Under the pieces are notes generated by a model. That model saw nothing but the letters and a program-made list of their open reading frames with translations, searched no databases and was not told the origin of the DNA. This document shows positions 1,934-14,911 of a DNA stretch of 44,476 nucleotides, piece by piece (the first letter of the stretch is position 1; the number at the start of each line of letters is the position of its first letter). The position numbers and the translations under genes were made by a program. Origin of the DNA: Gammaproteobacteria bacterium (GTDB taxonomy: Bacteria > Pseudomonadota > Gammaproteobacteria > Pseudomonadales > Halieaceae); contig JAUIEP010000022.1 of the NCBI GenBank assembly GCA_030428835.1, forward strand, positions 1-44,476. Reading direction: 5' to 3'.

Positions 1934-3451
1934 CTAGAACTCGATGCAGTTGCAGCCGTCGCGCGTGGTCACGCCGCCGCGCCGGCCTATCGGGTCATCC
2001 TCCAGCAGCGCGCGCAGTGCGTGTGCGTCCTGCGGTGTGTTGGCCACGATGCGCTCGCCCGCGTCGTTGCGCGCGATGACGATGCCCTGTTTCGGGCCGT
2101 CGCGGCCGAAGGCCACGGTGAAGGTTTCCACCGTCGCCGGCCCCGTTGGATCCGCGGCGGGCGGCACGATCGGCGCCGCGTCGACCGCGGCCTGCAACGG
2201 ACTGCTGTCGATCGCCTGCCACGCTCCCGTCGGCGCCTCGCGGGAGTACAGGCCGACGGAGTGTTTGGTGAGATACATGCCGTTGGCCGTGACGAGACCG
2301 TGGCCACCCGTGGCGCGCAGGACGCCGGTCATCTGGGCGATGGCATGCAGCGAGTAGTTGTTGCCAGGCCCGCCGAAGTAGGGCAGGCCGCCGGTGACGG
2401 TGACGCCGCGCGGGTCGCGCGGGTCGAGCCCGATTTCGCGGCAGGCGACCTGCACGGCGGAGGGAAAGCAGCTGTAGATATCGAAGTGCCCGATCTCGTC
2501 GACGCCGATGCCGGTGTGCGCGGCGATGGCCCGGAAGATCCCGCGCAGGGCGGGGGAGGCGTGCAGCTGCGGGCGTTCGCTGACGTGCCAGGTGTCGTTG
2601 CAGTCGGCGCCGCCGCGCAGGTAGATCCAGCGCTCCTCGTCGATGCCCAGCGCGCGAGCGGTGCCGACGGTGGTGAGAACCAGTGCCGCCGCCATGTCTA
2701 CCGCCAGTATGGGATTCATCGCGCGCGTGTAGGGATAGCCGATATAGCGATTGTGCGTGGCGATGGTGCCGATCTGCTCAGCGCTCTCGAACACGGGTTT
2801 CCATGCGAACGGATTGCCGGCGGCCACGCGACTCATATCGCTCGTCAGGCCGGCGATCAGCGCCGTGTGCGCCTCGCGATCCAGTCCGAGGTGCCGGCGC
2901 AGGCTGTTCTCGAACAGCGGATAGGTATTGATCGGCTCGTAGAGGCCGTGTGCTCTCTCGGTGTCGTTGACGCCCTCGCGCTCCTCGCCGATGGTGGCCG
3001 GTTCGGTGCTGCCCTGGCCGGGCCAGGCCGACAGGTCGTCGCCGTTGCTGAAAGCGGCGAACATCGTCGCGAGATTCTCGGCACCCGCGAGCAGCACGGC
3101 GTTGTGTTCACCCGCGGCGAGTGCGCGGGCGAAGTGGTTGACCAGGTACTGCGGGGTGTTCCCGCCGATCGTGCCCTGGAACAGCGCCGGTGCAGCTAGG
3201 CCGCAGCGCCCGGCGAGTTCCGCCGCCGCCTCCCGCGGAAACAGCCCGCGCACCTCCGGCGTCGTATCGGCGATGAAGCGCACGGTGCAGAGCGCGTCTA
3301 TCACATGGGTGACGCGCGGTACGCCGCAGTCCGCCAGGGCCGCGCCTGCGGCTGCCTCCAGCGCGTCCACGGGCGTGCGCGTCGCATCGGTCTCGCGCCA
3401 GGTCTGCTGGCCTGCGCCAATAATGATCGGGGTGTTGTCGGCTGCCGCCAT
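1934..3451 (-). CDS. Thiolase-superfamily protein annotated in relatives as acetyl-CoA acetyltransferase (SCPx-like)
   Basis: 505 residues from the ATG at 3451, which begins MAAADNTPIIIGAGQQTWRE. A longer frame exists upstream, but its extra residues are Arg-rich and look non-coding. The protein has a two-domain thiolase layout: an N-terminal half with an IGGNTPQYLVNHFARAL helix where the nucleophilic Cys normally sits, and a C-terminal half with FDIYSCFPSAVQVACRE and GLPYFGGPGNNYSLHAIA. The Cys of the SCPx-type loop (SCFP) is present. The classical N-terminal CxxG nucleophile and the GHPxGATG motif are not. It may act on acyl-CoAs by a modified mechanism, as in thiolase-like aldolases, or may not be a true thiolase. 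It stands alone, divergent from the permease gene. Confidence 0.75.
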   Translation of the reverse strand: MAAADNTPIIIGAGQQTWRETDATRTPVDALEAAAGAALADCGVPRVTHVIDALCTVRFIADTTPEVRGLFPREAAAELAGRCGLAAPALFQGTIGGNTPQYLVNHFARALAAGEHNAVLLAGAENLATMFAAFSNGDDLSAWPGQGSTEPATIGEEREGVNDTERAHGLYEPINTYPLFENSLRRHLGLDREAHTALIAGLTSDMSRVAAGNPFAWKPVFESAEQIGTIATHNRYIGYPYTRAMNPILAVDMAAALVLTTVGTARALGIDEERWIYLRGGADCNDTWHVSERPQLHASPALRGIFRAIAAHTGIGVDEIGHFDIYSCFPSAVQVACREIGLDPRDPRGVTVTGGLPYFGGPGNNYSLHAIAQMTGVLRATGGHGLVTANGMYLTKHSVGLYSREAPTGAWQAIDSSPLQAAVDAAPIVPPAADPTGPATVETFTVAFGRDGPKQGIVIARNDAGERIVANTPQDAHALRALLEDDPIGRRGGVTTRDGCNCIEF

Positions 3452-3525
3452 GCTTGCCGGTCCGTCCGTTAGGGAGCGCACAACATAAACGGGTTGGCGA
3501 CGCTTTGCCAGTGACGGTCGCGCCG

Positions 3526-3553
3526 TTGCTTTTCGCCACGGACGCGTTATGTT
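3526..3553 (+). promoter_or_regulatory. Candidate sigma70 promoter for the AI-2E/PerM permease gene
   Basis: TTGCTT (3526-3531), a 16-nt spacer and TATGTT (3548-3553) match the sigma70 consensus at about four of six positions in each box. The -10 box overlaps the upstream ATG at 3549, which supports translation starting at 3582. This is a weak call from pattern alone. Confidence 0.3.
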
Positions 3554-3581
3554 GAGCACACTACGGGTTGGGGGTCGCGCG

Positions 3582-4664
3582 ATGAATACGCTGTTCAAAG
3601 GGCAGTCGAACCGGGTGTGGCTGCTGGTGTTCCTGGTACTCGCGCTCGGCGCCTGCTACCTGTTGATCAAGCCCTACCTGCAACCCATCGTTCTCGCGAT
3701 CCTGATCGGCATGCTGGCCGCGCCCATCAACGAGAGAATCGTCGGCCTGCTGCGCGGGCGACGCAATCTCGGCGCGCTGCTCGGCTGCCTGTTATTGTCG
3801 CTGGTGATCGTGATACCCGCGCTGATCCTCATGGTCGCCATTCTCAAGCAGGGCATCACGTACTCGATCATCGTGCGGGAGTGGGCGACGCCCGAGAACG
3901 TCCAGCAGCTACTTGCCAACCCGCGTATTGTCAGCGTGCGCGAGTGGCTGACGGATGTACTGCCCGACGGCGCGATGGAGCCCGAGAACATCCGCGAGCA
4001 GGCGCTCGCCGTCGCGGGACAGATGGGCAAGCAGTTCGCCGGTGTGTCCACCGCCGTGATGGGCAGCGTCACCGCCTTTTTCATCAACTTCATGTTGCTG
4101 CTGTTCGTCCTGTTCTTCGTACTGCGCGACCACGACCGCATGCTCGCGTTCATGCGCCACGCGATGCCACTGTCGCGTTCGCAGGAAGATCTCCTGTTCA
4201 GGGAGGTGCGCGAGGTGAGCAAGTCGGCCCTGCTGGGTTCCCTGCTCACCGCCCTTACCCAGGGCGTGGTCGGAGGCCTGGGACTCTGGCTGGCGGGCTT
4301 CCCGGGCTTGTTCTGGGGCGCGGTGATGGCCTTTACCTCGCTGGTGCCGCTGGTGGGCACGGCGCTCGTCTGGGTGCCGGCCGCCGCCTTCCTGGCGCTC
4401 ACCGGCGAGTACGGCTGGTCGGCGTTCCTGGTGGTCTGGGGCGTCGTCGTGGTCGGCTCGATCGATAATTTCCTGCGGCCGCTCTTTATGCAGGGCTCCA
4501 GCATGAATACCGTGGTGGTGTTTTTCTCGCTGATCGGCGGCTTGCAGGTGTTCGGCCTGATGGGGCTGATCTACGGGCCGCTGGTCTTCTCGGTGGCGCT
4601 CGTCTTATTCCGGCTGTACGAGCGCGAGTTTTCCACCTTCCTGGATTCCCAGGACAACCACTAG
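3582..4664 (+). CDS. AI-2E/PerM (DUF20) family inner-membrane permease
   Basis: 360 residues from ATG 3582 (MNTLFKGQSNRVWLL). An alternative ATG at 3549 adds 11 residues but lies on the putative -10 box. The profile is typical of the family: two hydrophobic segments at the N-terminus, a soluble region with the EPENIREQALAVAGQMGKQFAG amphipathic stretch in its middle, then a cluster of C-terminal membrane segments containing TALTQGVVGGLGLWLAGF, LVPLVGTALVWVPAA and the conserved SIDNFLRPLFMQG motif near residue 300. Members have been linked to autoinducer-2 export or Na+/H+ exchange, but the substrate cannot be told from sequence. The gene converges on the acyl-CoA synthetase gene with a 4-nt overlap of stop regions. 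Confidence 0.9.
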   Translation: MNTLFKGQSNRVWLLVFLVLALGACYLLIKPYLQPIVLAILIGMLAAPINERIVGLLRGRRNLGALLGCLLLSLVIVIPALILMVAILKQGITYSIIVREWATPENVQQLLANPRIVSVREWLTDVLPDGAMEPENIREQALAVAGQMGKQFAGVSTAVMGSVTAFFINFMLLLFVLFFVLRDHDRMLAFMRHAMPLSRSQEDLLFREVREVSKSALLGSLLTALTQGVVGGLGLWLAGFPGLFWGAVMAFTSLVPLVGTALVWVPAAAFLALTGEYGWSAFLVVWGVVVVGSIDNFLRPLFMQGSSMNTVVVFFSLIGGLQVFGLMGLIYGPLVFSVALVLFRLYEREFSTFLDSQDNH

Positions 4665-6181
4665 CGCGCGAATCTTGCGCGCAGGGCGGGCTTGTCGACC
4701 TTGTTGGACGCGTTCAGCGGCAGGGCGTCGACGCGAAACCACGCGCGTGGCAGCTTGTAACCGGCGAGCAGCGCGCGACAGTGCGCTTCGAGGTCCGCGT
4801 CCGCCGTGGTGTCCGACTCCACCAGCACGGCGCAGACCCGTTCGCCCCAGCGCGGGTCGGGCAGCCCGATGACGGCGCAGTCCTTTACGCCGGGGAATTG
4901 GCGCAGCGCTTCCTCCACCTCCCGGGACGCGACGTTCTCACCGCCGGAGATGATCATGTCCTTCTTGCGATCAACCACGGCGAGATAGCCCGCCGCGTTG
5001 AAGCGGCCGATATCCCCGGTGTGCAGCCAGCCGTCGCGCAGGGTATTCGCGGTGGCGTCCGGGTCGTGCCAGTAGCCTGCCATGACCTGCGCGGCGCGGA
5101 CCAGTATTTCGCCCTGTTCGCCCGGCGGGACATCGATGCCGTCCTCCACCAGGCGAATCTCGGCGGTCGGCAGCGGCTTGCCCACGGTGTCCAGCAGTGC
5201 CTCCTCGCCCGCCGCTGCGCGGCGGTGATCGTCCACGGTGAGAAAGGACACGCTGCCCGACAACTCCGTCATGCCGTAGCTCTGGCACAACCCCACCTCG
5301 CTGACCGACTGCAGGCGCCTGATCAGGCTGGCCGGCATGGCGGAAGCGCCGTAGCCGATGGTGCGCACACCCGCGAGATCCGCGGGCCGGAAGTCGGGGT
5401 GATCGAGCAGCATGGCGATCATGGTCGGTGCCAGCGACATCGTGGTCACGCCGGCGTCGCGGCAGGCGAGCAGCGTTGCGGCGGCGTCGAAGGCGCGCGC
5501 CAGTACCACGCAGGCGCCGTGCCGGTGCTGCAGCAACACGTTGTGCGCCGCCACGTGAAACAGGGGGAACGGGTAGTAATAGCGGTCGCTGCGCTCGACG
5601 GGACGCCCGAGTTCCGCGGAGACCAGGCCCGCCAGGAATGAACGGTGCGTGAGCACGGCGCCCTTGGGCCTGCCGGTGGAACCCGAGGTGAACAGGATCC
5701 ACGCGGGGTCGTCCGTATTGCCGCCGGGTAACGGCGCACTGCGTGCAGTGCGTAACCATGTATCGTAAGCGTCACCGAGGGTCACCGTGCGCAGGGCGGC
5801 CGGGAACGCCGGCAGCGCCGCCAGAGGGGCCAGCAACTCCCCGTCGGCAAACAGCAGCGTGGCGCCGGAATGGGTTAGCTGGTAGAGCAACTCGGCGGGC
5901 GCGAGGCGCGCATTCAGCGGCACCAGGATTCGCCCCGCCGCCGGTACCGCGTACATGAGGTCGATAAACTCGGGGCCGTTCCACGCGAGTACCGCGACCC
6001 GGTCGCCGGGTTCGCCGACGCTCGCAAGGCGTCCGGCGAGCGTCTCGACGCGCTCGTTCAGTGTGGCGTAGGTGGTGCAGGTGCCCTGCCACCACAATGC
6101 CGGGTCCGCAGGCGCCGAGCGCGCCTGGTCGCGCACGATGTCCTGCAGCAGGGTGGGGCCCGTGTCACTCGCGCCGGTCAC
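4661..6181 (-). CDS. AMP-dependent acyl-CoA synthetase (class I adenylate-forming), last gene of the D-glutamate operon
   Basis: 506 residues, GTG start at 6181. The adenylate-forming signature ILFTSGSTGRPKGAVLTH lies at residues 162-179, followed by GYGASAMPAS, the YGMTELSG motif, the GWLHTGDIGRF hinge-domain block, KKDMIISGGENV and the C-terminal catalytic Lys region (NASNKVDKPALRARF). The family activates a carboxylate with ATP to acyl-AMP, then transfers it to CoA; medium-chain, aromatic or O-succinylbenzoate-like acids are all possible. The start lies 6 nt after the alr stop on the same strand, so it is probably co-transcribed with the D-amino-acid genes. Whether it joins that pathway or only shares the transcript is unknown. 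No strong Shine-Dalgarno sequence is seen, suggesting translational coupling to alr. Confidence 0.88.
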   Translation of the reverse strand: MTGASDTGPTLLQDIVRDQARSAPADPALWWQGTCTTYATLNERVETLAGRLASVGEPGDRVAVLAWNGPEFIDLMYAVPAAGRILVPLNARLAPAELLYQLTHSGATLLFADGELLAPLAALPAFPAALRTVTLGDAYDTWLRTARSAPLPGGNTDDPAWILFTSGSTGRPKGAVLTHRSFLAGLVSAELGRPVERSDRYYYPFPLFHVAAHNVLLQHRHGACVVLARAFDAAATLLACRDAGVTTMSLAPTMIAMLLDHPDFRPADLAGVRTIGYGASAMPASLIRRLQSVSEVGLCQSYGMTELSGSVSFLTVDDHRRAAAGEEALLDTVGKPLPTAEIRLVEDGIDVPPGEQGEILVRAAQVMAGYWHDPDATANTLRDGWLHTGDIGRFNAAGYLAVVDRKKDMIISGGENVASREVEEALRQFPGVKDCAVIGLPDPRWGERVCAVLVESDTTADADLEAHCRALLAGYKLPRAWFRVDALPLNASNKVDKPALRARFAR

Positions 6182-6187
6182 GGCGTA

Positions 6188-7267
6188 CTAACCGCGTGTG
6201 GCGATGCGCGCGACGCGCGCGGGCATGCGTGTGGTCAACTCATAGCCGATGGTGCCGGCGCCGGCCGCGATCTCGGCAACGGGCAGTTCGTCGCCCCACA
6301 ACGTGACCTCGTCGCCGAGTTGCACGCCCTCGATGTCGGTGACATCGAGGGTCAGCATATCCATGGACACGCGCCCGGCCAGCGGCGCGCGCCGGCCGCG
6401 TACCAGTGCGGGCGTGCCGTTGCCGGCCTGGCGCGGATAGCCGTCGCCGTAGCCGGCACTGACCGTGGCGATGCGCGACGGCCTGCGCGCCACCCACGTG
6501 CCGCCGTAGCCGACCGCGTCACCCGGCGCGACGTCGCGCAATGCGGTGATGCGCGCGACCAGTGTCATCACAGGCGCCAGTTCGACCGGTAGTGAGTGTG
6601 TCGCGACCATCGGGTTGAGTCCGTACAGCATGTAGCCCGGGCGGACCCAGTCGCAGTGGCTGCGCGGCCACGCGAGCAGTGCCGCCGAGTTGGCGCTCGA
6701 GCGCAGGCCGGTGTGCGGGATGTCGAGAAAGCGCGCGAGCTGTCCCGGCGTGCGGCTGTCGGCGGGGTTGTCCGCCGCGGCGAAGTGGGTACACAGTACG
6801 ACATCGTTGTGGCAGTTGTCTGAGGCGCGCAGTCGCGCAAGCGCGACGGGTGCATCGGCGGGCAGCACGCCGAGCCGGTTCATACCCGTGTCCACTTTCA
6901 GCCAGCAGTGCACCCGCGCCGGGAGGTTGGCGTCGAGCAGCCACTGTAGCTGCGCCTCGTTCTGCACCATGAGCCACAGGCCAAGGCCCGCGGCGACGCC
7001 CAGTTCCTTCGGCTCGAACACGCCCTGCAACAGGAGTATCGGCGCGCTGATCTCCGCGTCCCGCAACTCCACGGCCTCGTCGATACTCGCCACGGCAAAG
7101 GCGTCCACCACGTCCTGCAGGGCGCGTGCGACGAGGACGGCGCCGTGACCGTAGGCGTTGGCCTTCACCACGGCCATCAACTGTGAGGCGGGTGCCAGGT
7201 CCCGCGCGAGGGCGGCGTTGTGCCGCAGTGCGGCTGTGTTGATTCTCGCTGCGACGGGTCGCGTCAT
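6188..7267 (-). CDS. alr: Alanine racemase
   Basis: 359 residues, the usual length. This PLP enzyme interconverts L- and D-alanine in the cytoplasm. The PLP lysine is K35 in AVVKANAYGHG. The second catalytic base is the Tyr of AVGYGGTW (about Y254). The VRPGYMLYGLNP block (R209), VSAGYGDGYPR, GRVSMDMLTLDVTD and GDEVTLWG are all present, so the enzyme should be active. It sits 12 nt downstream of the D-amino-acid aminotransferase. That position suggests it supplies or drains D-alanine for the transaminase, a catabolic DadX-like role, and not only cell-wall synthesis. A second biosynthetic racemase elsewhere in the genome would fit this but cannot be seen here. Confidence 0.96.
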   Translation of the reverse strand: MTRPVAARINTAALRHNAALARDLAPASQLMAVVKANAYGHGAVLVARALQDVVDAFAVASIDEAVELRDAEISAPILLLQGVFEPKELGVAAGLGLWLMVQNEAQLQWLLDANLPARVHCWLKVDTGMNRLGVLPADAPVALARLRASDNCHNDVVLCTHFAAADNPADSRTPGQLARFLDIPHTGLRSSANSAALLAWPRSHCDWVRPGYMLYGLNPMVATHSLPVELAPVMTLVARITALRDVAPGDAVGYGGTWVARRPSRIATVSAGYGDGYPRQAGNGTPALVRGRRAPLAGRVSMDMLTLDVTDIEGVQLGDEVTLWGDELPVAEIAAGAGTIGYELTTRMPARVARIATRG

Positions 7268-7279
7268 GACTCGCCCGCT

Positions 7280-8161
7280 TCAGTAGTCGAACTTGTGGGC
7301 GACATAGGCGCTCTGCGCGGCGAGCCAGGTATCCCCGACGTCCCCGTCGCCCACGGGGGCGCCGTCAATCGCCACCACCGGTGCGACATCCTTGCTGGAA
7401 CTGGTAAGCCACACCTCCTGCGCGGTGCGCAACTCGTCGAGGGTGACCACGCGCTCCTCGACGTCGAGGTCGGTGTGGCGGCGCAGGATATCGAGCAGCA
7501 TCTGGCGCGTGATGCCGGGCAGCTTCTGTTCGTCCAGCTCGGGCGTCACCACCTTGCCCGCAATCACCGCGAACACGTTGCAGGCCGCGGCCTCGGTAAC
7601 CTCGCCCTGCGCATTGTAGAGAATGGTCTCATCGCTGCCGCTGGCGTGACCCTGCTGGTAGTGCATGACATTCCCCAGCAGTGCGGTGGACTTGATGTTG
7701 CAGCGCCGCCAGCGCATGTCTTCGGCCGTGCTGACACGGTAGCGCGTCACCGTTGCCTTGTCCGCCGTCGGGCAGGGGGGAATCGGGAACGCGAAGGCGT
7801 AGAGCGTGGGCCTGATGTTCGCGGGATAGGCGTGGTCGCGCCGGGTGTCCGCGCCGCGGCTCACGTGCAGGTACAGCGCGAGATCGCCGCCGCCGTTGCG
7901 CGCGATCAGTTCCGTCGCCACCGCGCGCCAGTCGGCCTCGGACATGCCGGAGTCGATCTCCAGCGATGCCAGGCCGTCGGCCATCCGCGCGAGGTGCGGG
8001 CCAAAGCCGACCAGCCGCCCGTCGTAGGAGGGAATGACCTCGTAGATGCCGTCGCCGAACAGGAAACCCCTGTCCATCGGCGAGATCTTCGCCTCTTCCA
8101 GCGGCAGGAAGTCGCCGTTCAAAAAAACGGTGTGCAGGGCGTTCTTGCGTTGTGTGCGCAT
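7280..8161 (-). CDS. dat: D-amino-acid aminotransferase (class IV; D-alanine:2-oxoglutarate type)
   Basis: 293 residues, ATG at 8161. It is a fold-type IV PLP transaminase. The N-terminal block ISPMDRGFLFGDGIYEVIP (27-45) is the hallmark of proteobacterial D-amino-acid transaminases. The PLP lysine is K157 in CNIKSTALLGNVM, and GEVTEAAACNVFAV supplies the conserved cofactor-binding Glu and Asn. The expected reaction is D-alanine + 2-oxoglutarate to and from pyruvate + D-glutamate. It is flanked by a DUF4392 gene (9 nt) and alr (12 nt), which together make D-glutamate the logical intermediate. A branched-chain or 4-amino-4-deoxychorismate lyase relative is less likely given the N-terminal motif and neighbours. 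Confidence 0.9.
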   Translation of the reverse strand: MRTQRKNALHTVFLNGDFLPLEEAKISPMDRGFLFGDGIYEVIPSYDGRLVGFGPHLARMADGLASLEIDSGMSEADWRAVATELIARNGGGDLALYLHVSRGADTRRDHAYPANIRPTLYAFAFPIPPCPTADKATVTRYRVSTAEDMRWRRCNIKSTALLGNVMHYQQGHASGSDETILYNAQGEVTEAAACNVFAVIAGKVVTPELDEQKLPGITRQMLLDILRRHTDLDVEERVVTLDELRTAQEVWLTSSSKDVAPVVAIDGAPVGDGDVGDTWLAAQSAYVAHKFDY

Positions 8162-8170
8162 GCGCTGTTC

Positions 8171-9010
8171 TCAGCCTGTAAATCCGGTCAATTGTCGCAG
8201 CTCGGCGATGATGTCCAGGCCGGCGTCCGGCCCCATCCCGTCCTCGGTGAGCGTGTTCTCGCCCGTGATGCCGTCCACGCTGCCCTTGCCGGACAGGTAG
8301 TTCAGGATAGACAGCGGCGACAGGTGTCCCAACAGGTCGGTGCCCGACCACCAGCCCAGCATGGCGATGACGCCGTATGCGCCCCAGTTCGAGACATCGG
8401 CTACCACGAGCTCGTCACAGCGCGTGACAGAGGGGTTGATATCGAGACCCGCCAACCGGGCGGCGATGTTGCCCATGCCGATCTCGTTGCCGCCGTCCCC
8501 GATGCCGATAGTAGGACAGTAGGCCTCGTCGAGATAGGGGTCGAAGTAAAAACAGCGCTCGGTGATGTCCTGCCGGCGCATGTTGTAGTAGCGACCGTCC
8601 GCCGCGAGGCCGGGACGCTCGATGGCGACCACCGCGGCGGGCGCCAGCCGCGCCAGTTCCGCGATCGCCTCGCGCCGCGCCGTCGTCACGTCACGCGCAC
8701 GCAGTTCGAGCACATTGAACTCGTCCGCCAGGGAGTTCACCAGCGGGGGACCGCAGGTGATGATGGGGCGCGCCGCCAGCGTCTCCAGCGTCTGGTAGAG
8801 AGCGATGGCGCCGACCGGGCCGTCGGTCTCGAAGGTGCCGGTCACGGGAAAGCCGGTGCCGATCAGTACCGTGCCCGTGATATCGCGCAGGTGGTTCGCC
8901 GCGCGCGCCACGTAGCCGGGCGCGAGCGCGGCCTGCGCCACCTGCATGTTGCGCGGGTTGCGCGCGACCAGCAGGTCCTCGATGGCGTGGCTGAGTTCGT
9001 CTTCGGTCAC
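8171..9010 (-). CDS. DUF4392 protein, C-terminal-type domain of D-glutamate cyclase
   Basis: 279 residues, GTG start one base after the pxpC stop region, so translationally coupled. The N-terminal MTEDELSHAIEDLLVARNPRNM, then GTVLIGTGFPVTGTFETDGP and CGPPLVNSL, match the DUF4392 family. GIGDGGNEIGMGNIAARL near residue 165-180 is its glycine-rich signature. In vertebrates this domain is fused behind DUF1445 in the mitochondrial D-glutamate cyclase DGLUCY, which converts D-glutamate to 5-oxo-D-proline and water. Here the DUF1445 partner is a separate gene at the head of the same operon, so the two may form a complex. The family is firm; the reaction is transferred by analogy. Confidence 0.88.
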   Translation of the reverse strand: MTEDELSHAIEDLLVARNPRNMQVAQAALAPGYVARAANHLRDITGTVLIGTGFPVTGTFETDGPVGAIALYQTLETLAARPIITCGPPLVNSLADEFNVLELRARDVTTARREAIAELARLAPAAVVAIERPGLAADGRYYNMRRQDITERCFYFDPYLDEAYCPTIGIGDGGNEIGMGNIAARLAGLDINPSVTRCDELVVADVSNWGAYGVIAMLGWWSGTDLLGHLSPLSILNYLSGKGSVDGITGENTLTEDGMGPDAGLDIIAELRQLTGFTG

Positions 9011-9011
9011 G

Positions 9012-9944
9012 TCAATACTCCCGCAGCACCTTGTTCAGCGTAAACCGTGCCGCGAGGTCGAGCGCGCGCAATGCCGTGGCGCGCGTGATCGGCGCGAAGT
9101 GGACGGTGGCGCCCGGGGTCAGTTGCGCCAGGCGGGCACTGTCCAGCGACAGCGCGACGCCTATCTTGGGGTAGCCGCCGATGGTCTGCCGGTCGTTCAG
9201 CAGGACGATGGGATTGCCGTCCGGCGGTATCTGGATCGCACCCTGGCAGATGCCCTCGGAGACGATGCCCGGGATGTTGCAGTCGACAGGCGCCCCCTCG
9301 AGCCGGTAACCCATGCGGTCGCTGTGTTCGGATACGGTATAGGGCGCGCCGAAAAACCGGCGCTTCTCGAGGCGGCTGAACAGGCGGTGCTGGGCACCGG
9401 GGATCACGCGGACAGTCAGGTGGTTGTGGTAGCGCGGCTGTTCCCGCTCGGGCAGTTGCAGGCGCCGCCGCGAGCGCACCGTGGCGCAGGGCAGCACATC
9501 GCCGGCCGCCAGGGGCTGCCCGTGCAGGCCGCCGATACCCTCGCGCAGCACGGTCGCCGTGCTGCCGAACTGCGGCGGCACATCGAAGCCGCCGGCCACG
9601 CCGAGGTAGGTGCGGGCGCCGCGCCGGGCGAATCCCAGTGCGATCTCGTCGCCCGCGCTGACCGGGTGGACGCACCAGCGCGGTTGTTCCTCGCCGTTGA
9701 CGGTGAGCGGCATCTTCGCGCCCGTGACGCAGATCCAGGTGTCGTCTTCGACGCGCAGTGTCAGCCCGCCCACACTGGTCTCCACGGCGGTGGCGCCCGG
9801 CGCATTCTGCAGGAGGCGGTTGAGATAGTGATACGCCTCGCCGTCCAGCGCCCCGCCGTTGGTCAGCCCGAGGCGGTGGTAACCGGTGCGCCCGCCGTCC
9901 TGCAGCAGGCTCAGTACGCCGCCCTTGACCACGGTAAGGCTCAC
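9012..9944 (-). CDS. pxpC: 5-oxoprolinase subunit C (biotin-dependent carboxylase-like KipA/PxpC)
   Basis: 310 residues, GTG start at 9944 overlapping the pxpB stop by 4 nt (GTGA). The N-terminal GVLSLLQDGGRTGYHRLGL and GALDGEAYHYLNRLLQN are signature PxpC/KipA/AHS2 sequences. FFGAPYTVSEHSDRMGYRLEG and the late LLNDRQTIGGYPKIG are also family blocks. With PxpA and PxpB it forms the ATP-dependent prokaryotic 5-oxoprolinase that opens 5-oxoproline to glutamate. Allophanate or urea-amidolyase homologues share this domain, but those are fused or sit with biotin carboxylases, which are absent here. Confidence 0.93.
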   Translation of the reverse strand: MSLTVVKGGVLSLLQDGGRTGYHRLGLTNGGALDGEAYHYLNRLLQNAPGATAVETSVGGLTLRVEDDTWICVTGAKMPLTVNGEEQPRWCVHPVSAGDEIALGFARRGARTYLGVAGGFDVPPQFGSTATVLREGIGGLHGQPLAAGDVLPCATVRSRRRLQLPEREQPRYHNHLTVRVIPGAQHRLFSRLEKRRFFGAPYTVSEHSDRMGYRLEGAPVDCNIPGIVSEGICQGAIQIPPDGNPIVLLNDRQTIGGYPKIGVALSLDSARLAQLTPGATVHFAPITRATALRALDLAARFTLNKVLREY

Positions 9945-10633
9945 TGCAGATCGCCCCCGAGTGCCAGGTACCGCTTTCGGCTGACCGGCTCGAAGCGCAC
10001 GCGATCGCCCACGGCGACCGGCATGTGCGGCGGGCGCACGGGATCGAACAGCGGCACGGGGCAGCGCCCGATCAGGTTCCAGCCGCCGGGGGAGGGGGCG
10101 GGATACACGGCGGTCTGGCGCTCGGCGATGGCGACGGACCCGCGCGGCACGCGCAGCCGCGGGCTGTCCAGCCGCGGCGCCGCGATGCGCTCGTCGACCT
10201 GCCCCAGGTAGGCAAAGCCCGGAGCGAAGCCGATAGCGTATACCCGGTACACGGTGCCCGCGTGGTACTCGATCACCGCGTCCACGCTCAGCCCCGCGCG
10301 CGCGGCCAGCGCCTCGAGGTCCGCGCCGGCCTCCGGCGCGTAGTACACGGGCAGTGTCACGTCATTCGACGCGTCGCCCGCGTCTTCCGGCGGCGGGGGC
10401 AGGGCGGCGCGGATGCGCCGTGCCACCTCTATGAACCGCAGTGGCGGCCGGTAGATCACCAGAATCGAGGTGTATGCCGGCACGAGGTCAACCAGGTCTG
10501 CGCCGAGTGCCTGCTCGACGGCGCGCGCAGCGCACTGGACCCAGGCATTCACCCGCGGGTCCACGCGCTCCCCCAGGTAGAGCATGAGCGCGCTCTCGCC
10601 GGCGCCGGTGATACGCGGGTACTCAGCGCGCAT
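9941..10633 (-). CDS. pxpB: 5-oxoprolinase subunit B (KipI/AHS1 family PxpB)
   Basis: 230 residues, ATG at 10633, overlapping the pxpA 3' end by 11 nt and the pxpC start by 4 nt. It carries the AHS1/KipI core: an N-terminal GESALMLYLGERVDPRVNAWV, then the most conserved stretch YAIGFAPGFAYLGQVDERI, LRVPRGSVAIAERQTAVYP and SPGGWNLIGRCPVPLFDP. In Bacillus subtilis the homologue KipI was first described as a kinase inhibitor; the enzyme role with PxpA and PxpC is now established. The pxpA-pxpB-pxpC order and overlaps imply 1:1:1 co-translation. Confidence 0.94.
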   Translation of the reverse strand: MRAEYPRITGAGESALMLYLGERVDPRVNAWVQCAARAVEQALGADLVDLVPAYTSILVIYRPPLRFIEVARRIRAALPPPPEDAGDASNDVTLPVYYAPEAGADLEALAARAGLSVDAVIEYHAGTVYRVYAIGFAPGFAYLGQVDERIAAPRLDSPRLRVPRGSVAIAERQTAVYPAPSPGGWNLIGRCPVPLFDPVRPPHMPVAVGDRVRFEPVSRKRYLALGGDLQ

Positions 10634-11354
10634 CGAGCAGCTCGCGGATGCGGCGGATCATGGCCACGCCCCCGGGGTTGTCGCCGTGTACGCAAAGCGT
10701 GTCCGCTGCGAGCGCCAACCTCGCGCCGCTGACCGTGGTGACGCTGCCGTGCGCGCACAGTTGTTCAACCTGGGCCAGGGTGTGCGCCGCGTCGTGCACG
10801 GCGCCGGGCGTGCCGCGCGGTACCAGCGTGCCCGCGTCGGTATAGGCGCGGTCCGCGAAGGCCTCGAAAATAAGCGTCACGCCGTGCGCGCGGGCCTCGG
10901 CGCGGTGCCCGTCCGCCTCCGTCGTCGCCAACAGCATCAGCGGCATATCAGTTGGGTATGCACACACCGCCTGCAACACGTTGGCCCGCACCGCGGGATC
11001 CGCCAGCATGTCGTTGTACAGCGCGCCGTGCGGTTTGACATAGCTCACGCGGACGCCCGCCGCGGCGGCGATTTCCTCCAGTGCCGCTATCTGTTCGTGT
11101 AGGACCGAGCGCAGCTCCGCCGCGGAGAGCCGCATCGATGTGCGGCCGAAGTTGGCGCGATCGGGATAGGACGGATGCGCGCCGACGGCCACCCCGTGGC
11201 GCGCGGCGAGCTCTACCGTCTGTCGCATGACCCGGGGTGAACCGGCGTGCACGCCGCAGGCGATATTGGCCTGGTCGATGAAGGGCATGGCCTCCGCTTC
11301 GGGGCTGAACTGTGCCGTGCCTGCCTCTTCGCCCAGGTCGCAGTTGAGCAGCAT
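10623..11354 (-). CDS. pxpA: 5-oxoprolinase subunit A (LamB/YcsF family PxpA)
   Basis: 243 residues, the family's normal size (about 245). It begins MLLNCDLGEEAG, followed by ANIACGVHAGSPRVMRQTV, GAHPSYPDRANFGRTSM, YVKPHGALYNDML and the C-terminal LCVHGDNPGGVAMIRRIRE. These Asp, His and Asn residues form the conserved YcsF active-site face. It lies 3 nt after the DUF1445 stop. B. subtilis ycsF likewise lies in one cluster with ycsI (DUF1445), kipI and kipA, which supports a real functional link between DUF1445 and the oxoprolinase. Confidence 0.95.
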   Translation of the reverse strand: MLLNCDLGEEAGTAQFSPEAEAMPFIDQANIACGVHAGSPRVMRQTVELAARHGVAVGAHPSYPDRANFGRTSMRLSAAELRSVLHEQIAALEEIAAAAGVRVSYVKPHGALYNDMLADPAVRANVLQAVCAYPTDMPLMLLATTEADGHRAEARAHGVTLIFEAFADRAYTDAGTLVPRGTPGAVHDAAHTLAQVEQLCAHGSVTTVSGARLALAADTLCVHGDNPGGVAMIRRIRELLDAR

Positions 11355-11357
11355 CGA

Positions 11358-12152
11358 CTACAGCACTGCCAACTGTGCGTTGCGCACGTCCGTGACCAGC
11401 ATGCAGCCCGGGCTGTGGGTGATCGCGAGCGGCAGGCCCGCGTTCTCCAGCGCCACCTGCGGTGTGACGCCGCAGGCCCAGAACAGGGGCAGCTCGCCCG
11501 GGGCGATGGTCACCGCCTCGCCGTAGTCCGGCCGCGCGAGGTCCTCGATGCCGATGCGCTCGGGAAAACCCATGTGAATCGGCGCGCCGTGCACCGACGG
11601 GAAACGGGTGCAGACCTGGATGGCCCGGATGGCGTCCGCGGGCGAGAAGGGGCGCATGCTGACGACCATGTGTGCCTCGAAGCGCCCCGCGGGAGTGCAG
11701 TTAATATCGGTGCGATACATGGGCACGTTGCGCCCCTCGCTCACGTTGCGCACCTCCAGCCCGTCGGCGTGCAGCGCCTCCTCGAAAGAGAAGGAACAGC
11801 CCAGCGCGAACGCGACGAAGTCGTCCTGCCACAGGTCGAGAATCTCGCCGCGCTCCTCGGCGAGCGCGCCGTCGCGAAACACGCGGTAGGCGGGCACATC
11901 GGTGCGGATATCGATATCGCCGAGCGTGGGCAGTGCCGGGTCGCCCGGCTCGGAACTCGCCAGCAGCGGGCAGGGCTTCGGGTTGAGCTGGCAAAAACGC
12001 AGGAAGTCGGCGGCGGCGACGGCAGGCAGGATGACGACATTGCACTGCACATAGCCCGACGCGAAACCGGATGTGTTGCCGGTGAACACGCCGCTGCGAA
12101 TGCGCTCCCGCACTTCCCTGGGCGCCATATCCGGTGTCGCGCTGCTGCCCAT
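11358..12152 (-). CDS. DUF1445/YcsI-family protein, N-terminal-type domain of D-glutamate cyclase; first gene of the operon
   Basis: 264 residues from ATG 12152, preceded by a GAGGGG Shine-Dalgarno. A longer open frame upstream is rejected because it runs through a non-coding inverted repeat. Family blocks are [60 protein letters not shown], the [14 protein letters not shown] Cys-containing motif, VVSMRPFSP, and the C-terminal [13 protein letters not shown] with [13 protein letters not shown]. The conserved Cys residues in the last three motifs probably line the active site. Databases call the family putative hydro-lyase. The fusion of this domain with DUF4392 in DGLUCY makes D-glutamate cyclase the best assignment here. 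Eight genes follow on the same strand with almost no gaps. Confidence 0.9.
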
Positions 12153-12247: not shown

Positions 12248-12365
12248 GGAGTATGAGCACTTACCCGATACCGGGGGCGTCTGGCGACAGGACGTCGCCA
12301 GCCGAGCCTATACAGGGATGTATGCTTTTTGGCGGTCCCCGGTATCGGGTAAGTGCTCATGCTCC
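12248..12365. repeat. 118-bp MITE-like element with 29-bp terminal inverted repeats
   Basis: The left arm 12248-12276 and right arm 12337-12365 are reverse complements over 28 of 29 positions, with a perfect 24-nt core (12253-12276 with 12337-12360). The interior holds a second perfect hairpin, TGGCGAC-AGGAC-GTCGCCA (12282-12300), and a small palindrome ATACAGGGATGTAT (12310-12323). No convincing gene lies inside. The layout resembles a miniature inverted-repeat element or a REP/BIME pair. It fills the gap between the D-glutamate operon and tesB, just upstream of the tesB promoter. There is no T-tract, so it is not a standard terminator. Confidence 0.8.
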
Positions 12366-12438: not shown

Positions 12439-13278
12439 ATGCTCGCCAAACTCATCGACGTACTGAGCCCGCGCCCGCTGGGTGACGACCGCTTCGAGGC
12501 GGACAACATGCACCCGGACGCGTTCCGCGTGTACGGCGGCCAGGTGCTCGCCCAGGCCATCGCGGCGGCAGTACAGACCGTGGATCCCATGCGCCGTATC
12601 CACTCCCAGCACGCCTATTTCCTGCGCCCGGGGGACCCGGCGAAAGCCATCGAACTGGAAGTGGAGAGAGTGCGCGACGGCGCCAGTTTCAGCGCGCGAC
12701 GCGTGCTGGCAAAGCAGAAAGGCAGGCCGATACTCGGCAGCTCCATGTCCTTCCAGATGCCCTCCAGGGGTGACGACTACTTCCCCGGGATGCCCCCGGC
12801 GCCCGACCCGGAGACCCTGCCCAACGAGCGCCAGCTCAGCCTGGAGGCGGGCAACCTGGACGAGAGCTTCATGATCACCACGGGGGAGGACCTCGATATC
12901 CGGGTCGTGGAGCCCATTAACTGGGCAAAACCTGTCGCGCGTGAGGGGAAGCTGCAGGCCTGGATGAAAACCAGCGACGCGCTGCCGGACGACCCCGGAC
13001 TGCACCAGGCGGTGCTCGCCTACCTGTCCGACGCGTTCCTGATCGACGTCTGCCTGATCGTGCACGGCCGCGGCTTCGACGAGGGTGATTTCCAGGTCGC
13101 GAGCCTGGACCACGCCCTGTGGTTCCACGACGATTTCCGCGCCGACGACTGGCTGCTCCACGTGGTGGAGGCCGAACGCATCAGCGGCGGCCGCGGCCTC
13201 GCGCGGGGCAGTTTCTACACGCGCGACGGTCGGCTGGTGGCCACTACCATCCAGCAGGGCCTGATGCGCTTCCGCTAG
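12439..13278 (+). CDS. tesB: Acyl-CoA thioesterase II (TesB family)
   Basis: 279 residues, close to E. coli TesB (286), with a double-hotdog layout. The N-terminal hotdog has VYGGQVLAQAIAAAVQTV and HSQHAYFLRPGD. The C-terminal hotdog has DHALWFHDDFRADDWLLHV and ARGSFYTRDGRLVATTIQQG. The catalytic Asp (DHALWFH), Thr and Gln (TTIQQG) expected for TesB are visible. It hydrolyses medium- and long-chain acyl-CoA to free acid and CoA in the cytoplasm. A Shine-Dalgarno-like AGGATCTACAGG precedes the ATG. The acyl-CoA synthetase gene 73 nt downstream does the reverse chemistry, though it has its own promoter. Confidence 0.94.
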   Translation: MLAKLIDVLSPRPLGDDRFEADNMHPDAFRVYGGQVLAQAIAAAVQTVDPMRRIHSQHAYFLRPGDPAKAIELEVERVRDGASFSARRVLAKQKGRPILGSSMSFQMPSRGDDYFPGMPPAPDPETLPNERQLSLEAGNLDESFMITTGEDLDIRVVEPINWAKPVAREGKLQAWMKTSDALPDDPGLHQAVLAYLSDAFLIDVCLIVHGRGFDEGDFQVASLDHALWFHDDFRADDWLLHVVEAERISGGRGLARGSFYTRDGRLVATTIQQGLMRFR

Positions 13279-13285
13279 GGTTTGT

Positions 13286-13315
13286 TTGTCAGCCCGCGCG
13301 GCTTGCCACTATAGT
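13286..13315 (+). promoter_or_regulatory. Candidate sigma70 promoter for the second acyl-CoA synthetase
   Basis: TTGTCA (13286-13291), an 18-nt spacer and TATAGT (13310-13315) match the consensus at five of six positions in each box. The site lies in the tesB-synthetase gap. A start near 13322 leaves a leader of about 30 nt containing an AAGGAAA ribosome-binding site. Confidence 0.5.
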
Positions 13316-13351
13316 GGGCGCCATAACGATCACAGCCGTAAGGAAACCGCA

Positions 13352-14911
13352 ATGCCGCACCCCAGTGTTTACGCCGAGACCTATCCCCACAAAGCCGCCT
13401 ACATCATGGGCGCCACCGGCGAGGTCGTGTCCTTCCGCGAACTGGACGAGGCCTCCAACCGCGCCGCGCACCTGTTCCGCTCCCTCGGACTGCAGCAGGG
13501 CGACCATATCGGTTTCATGCTGGACAACCGGCAGGAGTTCATGCACCTGATCTGGGCGGCACAGCGCTCGGGCCTCATCTATACCCCGATCAGCACGCAC
13601 CTCAAGCGCGACGAGACGGCGTACATCCTCGGCAACTGCGGCGCGAAGGTATTCATCGCCTCGTCGAAATATGCCGACGTGGCCCAGGAGGTGGTGCCGG
13701 AAGCGGAGGGAGTGCAGCACTTCTTCATGGTCGGCGGCATCCGGCCGGGGTTTGAATCCTGGGAGGAGGCCGTCAGCGACCAGAGCGAGGAGCGTATCGC
13801 CGACGAGTGCAACGGCGCCCCCATGCTCTACTCCTCCGGCACCACCGGCTACCCCAAGGGTGTCTACGCGGACCCGGCCAGCCTCGACATCAACGAGCCA
13901 CCGATGCTCGCCAACACCATCGGCCTGTTGTTCGGTTTCGGCGAGGAGACCGTGTACCTGTCGCCGGCGCCGCTGTACCACGCGGCGCCCCTGCACTACA
14001 CGATGATGACCACCTGGAACGGGGGCACCGTGGTCATCATGGAGAAGTTCGACCCGGAGCAGGCCCTGAAGCTTATCGAGGAGCATCGCGTGACCCACAG
14101 CCAGTGGGTGCCCATCATGTTTGTGCGCATGCTGAAACTGCCGGAAGAGGTGCGCAAGGCCTACGATGTCAGCTCCATGCAGTACGCCATCCACGCGGCG
14201 GCGCCGTGCCCGATCGACATCAAGGAGCGCATGATCGAGTGGTGGGGCGAGATCATCGTCGAGTACTACGCGGCCAGCGAGGGCATCGGCATCACGATCA
14301 TCGACTCCGCGGACTGGCTCAAGCACAGGGGGTCCGTAGGCAAGTCGCTGCTGGGTGACGTGCACATACTCGACGATGACGGCAACGAGGTGCCCGTCGG
14401 CGAGATCGGCACGGTCTACTTCGAGGGCGCGCAGGTGCGGTTCCGCTATCACAACGAACCCGAGAAGACCGCCGACGCCTACAACGAGCGCGGCTGGGCT
14501 ACCACGGGCGATGTCGGCTACGTGGACGAGGAGGGCTACCTGTACCTTACCGATCGCAAGAACTACACGATCATCTCCGGCGGCGTGAACATCTACCCGC
14601 AGGAGATCGAGAACCTGCTCGCCTCCCACGACAAGATCGCCGACGTGGCGGTGTTCGGTATCCCCAACGAGGAGTTTGGTGAGGAGGTGAAGGCCGTGGT
14701 GCAGCCCATGAACTGGGCAGACGCCACTGACGAGACCGCCTTCGAGATCCTCGAGTGGCTGCGCGAGCGCATCGCCAGCATCAAGATGCCGCGCTCGCTC
14801 GACTTCCACGAGCAGCTGCCGCGCATGGACAACGGCAAGTTATACAAGCGGCGGCTGGTGGAAGAGTACCGGGCAGCGGCGCGGGACGATAATCCCGCGA
14901 CAAAGGGCTGA
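13352..14911 (+). CDS. AMP-dependent acyl-CoA synthetase (FadD-like)
   Basis: 519 residues from ATG 13352, with Shine-Dalgarno AAGGAAA 5 nt upstream; an upstream in-frame extension overlaps the promoter and is rejected. It carries the AMP-binding P-loop MLYSSGTTGYPKGV (158-171), a YYAASEGIGIT substrate/adenine motif, GWATTGDVGYVDEEGYLYL and DRKNYTIISGGVNIYPQEIE in the mobile C-terminal domain, and a C-terminal LPRMDNGKLYKRRL with the catalytic Lys. The substrate is most likely a fatty or related carboxylic acid; chain length cannot be told from sequence. It is distinct in sequence from the synthetase at 4661-6181, so it is not a recent duplicate. Confidence 0.92.
   Translation: MPHPSVYAETYPHKAAYIMGATGEVVSFRELDEASNRAAHLFRSLGLQQGDHIGFMLDNRQEFMHLIWAAQRSGLIYTPISTHLKRDETAYILGNCGAKVFIASSKYADVAQEVVPEAEGVQHFFMVGGIRPGFESWEEAVSDQSEERIADECNGAPMLYSSGTTGYPKGVYADPASLDINEPPMLANTIGLLFGFGEETVYLSPAPLYHAAPLHYTMMTTWNGGTVVIMEKFDPEQALKLIEEHRVTHSQWVPIMFVRMLKLPEEVRKAYDVSSMQYAIHAAAPCPIDIKERMIEWWGEIIVEYYAASEGIGITIIDSADWLKHRGSVGKSLLGDVHILDDDGNEVPVGEIGTVYFEGAQVRFRYHNEPEKTADAYNERGWATTGDVGYVDEEGYLYLTDRKNYTIISGGVNIYPQEIENLLASHDKIADVAVFGIPNEEFGEEVKAVVQPMNWADATDETAFEILEWLRERIASIKMPRSLDFHEQLPRMDNGKLYKRRLVEEYRAAARDDNPATKG

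Follow-up and report, generated by a model that had tools for sequence, protein, structure and literature searches.

An eight-gene operon on a 44,476-nucleotide stretch of Halieaceae DNA, hereafter the window (contig JAUIEP010000022.1 of assembly GCA_030428835.1, a gammaproteobacterial genome of 5.2 Mb in 319 contigs), places genes for an alanine racemase (Alr) and a D-amino-acid transaminase (Dat) beside those for the two halves of a putative D-glutamate cyclase (DUF1445 and DUF4392) and for the three subunits of 5-oxoprolinase (PxpA, PxpB and PxpC, together PxpABC). We read it, with a probability of about 0.68, as a unit that couples the supply of both D-amino acids of peptidoglycan to an ATP-driven recovery of glutamate from D-glutamate. 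In Halieaceae an amphibolic role suits the operon best: Alr and Dat would supply the cell wall, and the cyclase-oxoprolinase branch would return D-glutamate to L-glutamate.

Candidate sources of D-alanine and D-glutamate

Glutamate racemase (MurI) has no match at E ≤ 0.001 in the genome that carries the window, and in none of 36 genomes of the family does a match exceed 27 bits, three weak ones reaching 22.9 to 26.2 bits; MurI lies above its cut-off in 15 of the 21 other genomes of the order. The single Alr match of the window's genome is the one in the operon. Of the 36 family genomes, 32 have exactly one Alr match (in G021 a contig-end fragment) and G011 has none; G020 and G032 each show a further match that scores below 25 bits. 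Wherever DUF4392 occurs in the family (34 genomes), the best-scoring Alr match is found no more than about 2 kb away from it. For Dat we used a threshold of E ≤ 1e-48, set post hoc between a match of 1.4e-50 and weaker best matches of 4e-47 or worse. At this threshold exactly one Dat is present in 34 of the 36 family genomes, always beside DUF4392, and the two genomes lacking it (G011 and G021) are 74% and 88% complete. Under the same model the operon Dat of the window's genome scores 209.3 bits, and the other matches there 140.7 and 37.2.

Dat itself is matched best by D-amino-acid transaminase models (PRK06680, 237.8 bits; TIGR01121, 209.7 bits, against 152.1 bits for the best branched-chain aminotransferase model), and its nearest solved structures are D-amino-acid and D-alanine aminotransferases. 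It carries the stretch IKS..LLGNV with K157, the catalytic lysine, and the R108-x-H110 pair expected of a D-amino-acid transaminase. The Alr and Dat of the operon are the only strong candidates that we found for D-alanine and D-glutamate synthesis in the family, and Dat is the only D-glutamate candidate found for MurD in the window's genome; with no other strong source and no MurI, the two steps most probably also serve peptidoglycan synthesis.

The MurD of this genome, the only match there to pass the cut-off (at 392.8 bits; other matches of Mur-ligase type, all weaker, lie close by on the same contig), probably needs free D-glutamate, because in alignment with Escherichia coli MurD it retains Asp182, Lys348 and Lys319 (as its own D191, K359 and K330), residues that have been tied to use of D- rather than L-glutamate (PMC8788868). 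The L-glutamate-using MurD2 is described as having Glu and Arg at positions 182 and 348, and changing both switched it to D-glutamate (PMC8788868). Two family assemblies (G009 and G014) yielded no MurD above cut-off.

Across the 57 genomes of the order, Dat occurs in 40 of the 42 without MurI above cut-off, as against 3 of the 15 with it, and all six such MurI-lacking genomes outside the family have Dat. One relative without MurI, DUF4392 and DUF1445 (G045) has its alr and dat matches side by side. We also sampled the class, in 369 gammaproteobacterial genomes, counting a MurI match as strong at E below 1e-30: 216 genomes have Dat and no strong MurI, 36 have neither, 48 have both and 69 have MurI only, which places Dat in 216 of the 252 genomes without strong MurI versus 48 of the 117 with it (Fisher p 6.6e-18, a value that ignores relatedness). 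MurI passes its cut-off in 115 of the 369, and Dat may be a commoner source of D-glutamate in the class than MurI.

Conservation of the gene cluster

DUF4392 is found in 34 of the 36 Halieaceae genomes versus 3 of the 21 others of the order. We took long stretches from 30 of the 33 other DUF4392-bearing family genomes (G002, G003 and G025 were left out), and in 28 of the 29 untruncated loci the core DUF1445-pxpA-pxpB-pxpC-DUF4392-dat-alr is complete on one strand; in the remaining one (G022) DUF1445 is encoded elsewhere in the genome rather than beside the cluster. Over all 30 loci pxpA was found in 29, pxpB in 29 and pxpC in 30, the missing copies belonging to truncated loci. Gene order among the genes present is unchanged in 30/30 family loci and in 80/80 named loci, the latter being the 80 most similar of 555, not a random draw, and overlapping in part with the genomes of the family set. 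Linkage of the seven genes is far beyond chance. Conservation outside this strain, on which the first-pass annotation of the window had staked its proposal, extends across many genera in the two sets of loci.

That annotation had described eight genes on one strand, spaced −11 to +12 nt apart, as a single unit. The coordinates of the open reading frames agree with the layout: eight frames run along the minus strand from 12152 to 4661 with gaps, in order, of +3, −11, −4, +1, +9, +12 and +6 nt, and Pfam places all eight proteins above cut-off in the families that had been named. The unit itself shrinks to seven genes. An acyl-CoA synthetase of the AMP-binding family follows alr in 14/14 loci of the same genus and 0/19 other loci, and we rejected it as a member of the pathway; five named loci with the gene in this place (L090, L091, L092, L097 and L127) are same-genus genomes already counted. 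Acyl-CoA-synthetase-like matches of 29–31% identity stand in a different position, upstream of DUF1445, in L068, L121, L129, L133, L140, L142, L146 and L148.

The putative cyclase and the oxoprolinase genes

The predicted return route begins with the two DUF proteins. A mouse homologue (9030617O03Rik) of human C14orf159 is reported to convert D-glutamate to 5-oxo-D-proline (PMC5339696), and in animals DUF1445 and DUF4392 are described as fused in one protein (PMC5132392), whereas here they are two separate genes flanking pxpABC, with a predicted activity. The six acidic metal ligands of the DUF4392 protein TON_0340, described as invariant in DUF4392 (PMC5132392), have their counterparts in E61, D63, E131, D172, E176 and D257 of the window's protein, in columns that are invariant across 14 sequences, and relatives of TON_0340 are present in the PDB. 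With both domains in the genome and all six ligands kept, the pair has the sequence features of a DGLUCY-type D-glutamate cyclase. DUF1445 accompanies DUF4392 in 35 of 37 genomes, both misses (G017 and G025) being fragmented assemblies, and also occurs without it in G021, G048, G054 and the control Bacillus subtilis; a partner that is nearly always there for DUF4392, and that also occurs alone, would suit an enzyme made of two parts, with DUF4392 dependent on DUF1445. We know of no pairing of D-glutamate cyclase with PxpABC, Dat or Alr in mammals.

As in the PxpABC operons of B. subtilis and Corynebacterium glutamicum (pxpTABC), pxpA, pxpB and pxpC stand together, all three being present and adjacent in the window. 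B. subtilis also encodes a DUF1445 protein, found in our control search and presumably located beside its pxp genes. The C. glutamicum operon is described as including a transporter and a GntR regulator (PMC13274462), where the present one has DUF4392, dat and alr instead, and the substrate here is likely to be the D form of 5-oxoproline or a racemised form.

Related clusters outside the family

In the family and the named loci alike we scored a gene as linked when it lay on the same strand, within 6 kb and with at least 40% identity; four named loci (L118, L123, L124 and L144) count as dat-linked despite 3.1–4.4 kb in between, and L112 counts as lacking dat, its 34%-identity transaminase lying 0.9 kb away on the opposite strand. 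On this basis, among the named loci whose sequence reaches far enough, 71 of 79 have a linked dat and 36 of 74 a linked alr. Removing 18 loci of the family itself and three of uncertain family leaves 59, in Marinobacterium, Amphritea, Aestuariicella, Pseudoalteromonas, Colwellia, Arsukibacterium and Sedimenticola among others; here dat is linked in 50/58, alr in 15/53 (absent from 38) and all seven genes in 12/50, and both pxpB and pxpC are missing from 4. Between DUF4392 and dat, 14 of the 50 dat-linked loci have 0.9–1.4 kb (L102, L104, L111, L113, L115, L117, L119, L120, L128, L130, L131, L134, L135 and L152), and in both members inspected, L115 and L120, the gap contains a same-strand LysR-type gene. 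Outside the family, where clusters mostly lack alr and some have this gap, with a LysR-type gene in two cases, a catabolic role is more likely.

Several variants were seen along the way. In Amphritea opalescens (L144, 10674-12331) an AsnC/Lrp-type regulator and an opposite-strand gene of the pyridoxal-phosphate-dependent (PALP) family lie between DUF4392 and dat. A shorter cluster, with pxpA adjoining DUF4392 and dat and no pxpB or pxpC nearby, occurs in four Pseudoalteromonas loci (L143, L154, L161 and L201), all with DUF1445, and in L150/L055; PxpA may have other partners there. In L132, L149 and L162 an alanine-racemase-like gene of 35–37% identity sits upstream of DUF1445, not downstream of dat.

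We considered DUF4392 as a general marker of MurI loss and rejected it: MurI exceeds its cut-off in 13 of 50 genomes selected from the named loci, Halieaceae included, a share close to the 115/369 of the class. By cluster type, in a grouping of our own, MurI is found with 3/20 alr-linked clusters, 9/25 dat-only clusters and 1/5 that lack dat or are cut off before it; that MurI is rarer with alr-linked than with dat-only clusters is suggestive only.

Proposed function and alternatives

In the proposed amphibolic operon, Alr would convert L-alanine to D-alanine, and Dat, in place of the missing MurI, would move the amino group of D-alanine to 2-oxoglutarate to give D-glutamate; D-alanine would pass on to Ddl and D-glutamate to MurD. 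D-glutamate that is left over, set free as the wall turns over or imported would be cyclised to 5-oxoproline by the two-protein DUF1445/DUF4392 enzyme, and PxpABC would open the ring with ATP to give glutamate, accepting 5-oxo-D-proline either through a D-tolerant PxpABC or after racemisation by DUF1445 or DUF4392. The enzyme activities, their essentiality, the direction of flux and the acceptance of 5-oxo-D-proline by PxpABC are what we infer from the gene families, their order and conservation, the lack of any further strong match to Alr, Dat or MurI in the window's genome and the D-glutamate-type residues of its MurD. A bolder form of this proposal, which we regard as possible though doubtful, holds that the ATP-consuming branch inverts the stereochemistry (D-glutamate to 5-oxo-D-proline to L-glutamate) and sets the D-glutamate level, replacing regulation that was lost with MurI; the inverting step would be either a lactam racemisation carried out by DUF1445 or DUF4392, or the action of a PxpABC that accepts the D form.

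Several observations weigh against a wall-supply unit with a return arm. The window's MurD has Phe where E. coli MurD has Leu416, a fourth glutamate-site position, as MurD2 does; a change at this position alone is reported to have left MurD2's choice of glutamate unaltered (PMC8788868), and the solved MurD 7sir likewise has Phe there. In one family genome (G035) there is a further Alr match, partial and scoring 269.8 bits. Dat falls below the curated cut-offs of its best models (237.8 against 320 for PRK06680, 209.7 against 277.45 for TIGR01121), the latter of which discriminates little here since 0/57 relatives and 13/369 class genomes pass it. Other sources of D-glutamate were not seen, although MurL was not searched for directly and bifunctional DapF or PabC-type sources are possible. 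PxpABC, for its part, is described in C. glutamicum as acting on 5-oxo-L-proline (PMC13274462) and the predicted cyclase product is the D form, a mismatch that the first-pass annotation had pointed out and that we consider well taken. DUF4392 is present in 3/369 class genomes though Dat without MurI is common there, so a Dat-based supply needs no return arm. Finally, 8 of the 79 named loci have DUF1445-pxpABC-DUF4392 with no close dat on the same strand. The notion that Dat supply requires the cyclase branch as an overflow outlet finds no support as a general rule, given 216 class genomes with Dat and no strong MurI, and given G045, whose neighbouring alr and dat come with neither DUF4392 nor DUF1445.

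The first-pass annotation had itself proposed a dedicated catabolic pathway for D-amino acids or peptidoglycan fragments, in which Dat would gather the amino groups of D-alanine and others as D-glutamate, to be cyclised and hydrolysed to L-glutamate for growth. Much of what it built on holds: the enzymes form a closed route, their linkage is conserved and D-glutamate is a natural shared metabolite. The 38 outside-family loci without alr, the 14 with a DUF4392-dat gap, the LysR-type genes and the AsnC/Lrp-type gene of the Amphritea cluster lean the same way, and free D-alanine and D-glutamate are reported from seawater and sediment (PMC6965332). Within Halieaceae, however, the only strong D-alanine and D-glutamate sources found are Alr and Dat, with MurI missing, and the eight genes of the operon include no transporter or regulator family; a purely catabolic role is unlikely there, and the operon looks more like a wall-supply unit than a purely scavenging pathway. 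One earlier study discounted D-glutamate cyclase and D-Ala:D-Glu transaminase on the view that an anabolic role is likelier for them than a catabolic one (PMC6131576). The remaining explanation is that PxpABC disposes of 5-oxo-L-proline as a housekeeping task, that DUF1445 and DUF4392 act on pyroglutamate of L origin or on some other small molecule, and that alr and dat are metabolically unconnected neighbours. In its favour are the named loci that lack a close dat, pxp operons of other make-up such as pxpTABC (PMC13274462) and the Mn-dependent phosphatase activity reported for TON_0340 in vitro (PMC5132392), but dat is linked in 50 of the 58 outside-family loci, over distances at which chance neighbourhood is unlikely, and the mouse homologue acts on D-glutamate (PMC5339696); we think it quite improbable.

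The amphibolic operon recalls several known systems. It shares with mammalian D-glutamate cyclase both domains (PMC5132392) and the metal-site acids. Formation of D-glutamate for MurD by Dat from 2-oxoglutarate is a stated alternative to MurI (PMC8788868), whereas here Dat and Alr share an operon with the cyclase and oxoprolinase genes. The DgcN-DgcA pathway of marine bacteria likewise leads from D-glutamate to L-glutamate and is described as energetically costly (PMC12363236, PMC10845958), but its enzymes differ from those of the operon. Among the papers listed on D-glutamate cyclase, DUF4392, 5-oxoprolinase, 5-oxo-D-proline, MurL/MurD2, Dat/MurI and dgcN, none describes the operon in its title or the opening lines of its abstract, which is weak evidence of absence as most subscription journals were not covered. 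If right, our proposal would give a bacterial role to DUF1445 and DUF4392, the two halves of the mammalian enzyme, and would suggest how a whole marine family makes its wall D-glutamate without glutamate racemase; the enantiomer gap at 5-oxoproline becomes a testable question.

Gene assignments and neighbouring genes

Table 1. Genes of the operon in window coordinates, with the model matches behind each assignment.
Gene product	Length (aa)	Position	Strand	Evidence
DUF1445 / PF07286 'D-glutamate cyclase' protein	264	11358..12152	-	Pfam D-Glu_cyclase/DUF1445 216.6 bits; homologue of one of two domains of animal D-glutamate cyclase
PxpA, 5-oxoprolinase subunit A	243	10623..11354	-	Pfam LamB_YcsF 290.5 bits; NCBIfam PRK05406.1-5 314.2 bits (cut-off 213)
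PxpB, 5-oxoprolinase subunit B	230	9941..10633	-	Pfam CT_C_D 227.7 bits; TIGR00370 160.1 bits (cut-off 145.55)
PxpC, 5-oxoprolinase subunit C	310	9012..9944	-	Pfam CT_A_B 290.3 bits
DUF4392 / PF14336 protein	279	8171..9010	-	Pfam GLUCM-like_C/DUF4392 203.9 bits; homologue of C-terminal domain of animal D-glutamate cyclase
Dat, D-amino-acid transaminase (class IV)	293	7280..8161	-	Pfam Aminotran_4 171.0 bits
Alr, alanine racemase	359	6188..7267	-	Pfam Ala_racemase_N 217.6 bits, Ala_racemase_C 150 bits; TIGR00492 351.4 bits (cut-off 168)
AMP-binding acyl-CoA synthetase	506	4661..6181	-	Pfam AMP-binding 269.1 bits; best NCBIfam model 452.2 (cut-off 476, below)

The DUF1445 protein also matches NCBIfam PRK05463 ('putative hydro-lyase') above cut-off, with 395.6 bits over residues 7-263, and because the match spans these residues we prefer the ATG at 12152 to the GTG at 12260 as its start; its relatives in the PDB include 2pif and 3db9. 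PxpC falls below an equivalog cut-off (225.9 bits against 500) and above that of the domain model TIGR00724 (255.0 against 230.2). The DUF4392 protein has no NCBIfam match and is assigned from Pfam alone. Alr contains both the VVKANAYGHG and the GYGDGYPR motif. A scan for promoters and terminators gave nothing clearly above shuffled controls.

Locus L065 (G019 C8) encodes another DUF4392 protein of that genome, a divergent one with 28% identity over 218 aa, and no operon genes were found around it. Upstream of the operon (window 12439-14911) lie an acyl-CoA thioesterase II gene and a second AMP-binding gene, common to many family loci beyond the genus; downstream (1934-4664) are AI-2E-type and thiolase-like genes, which accompany the operon in same-genus loci only.

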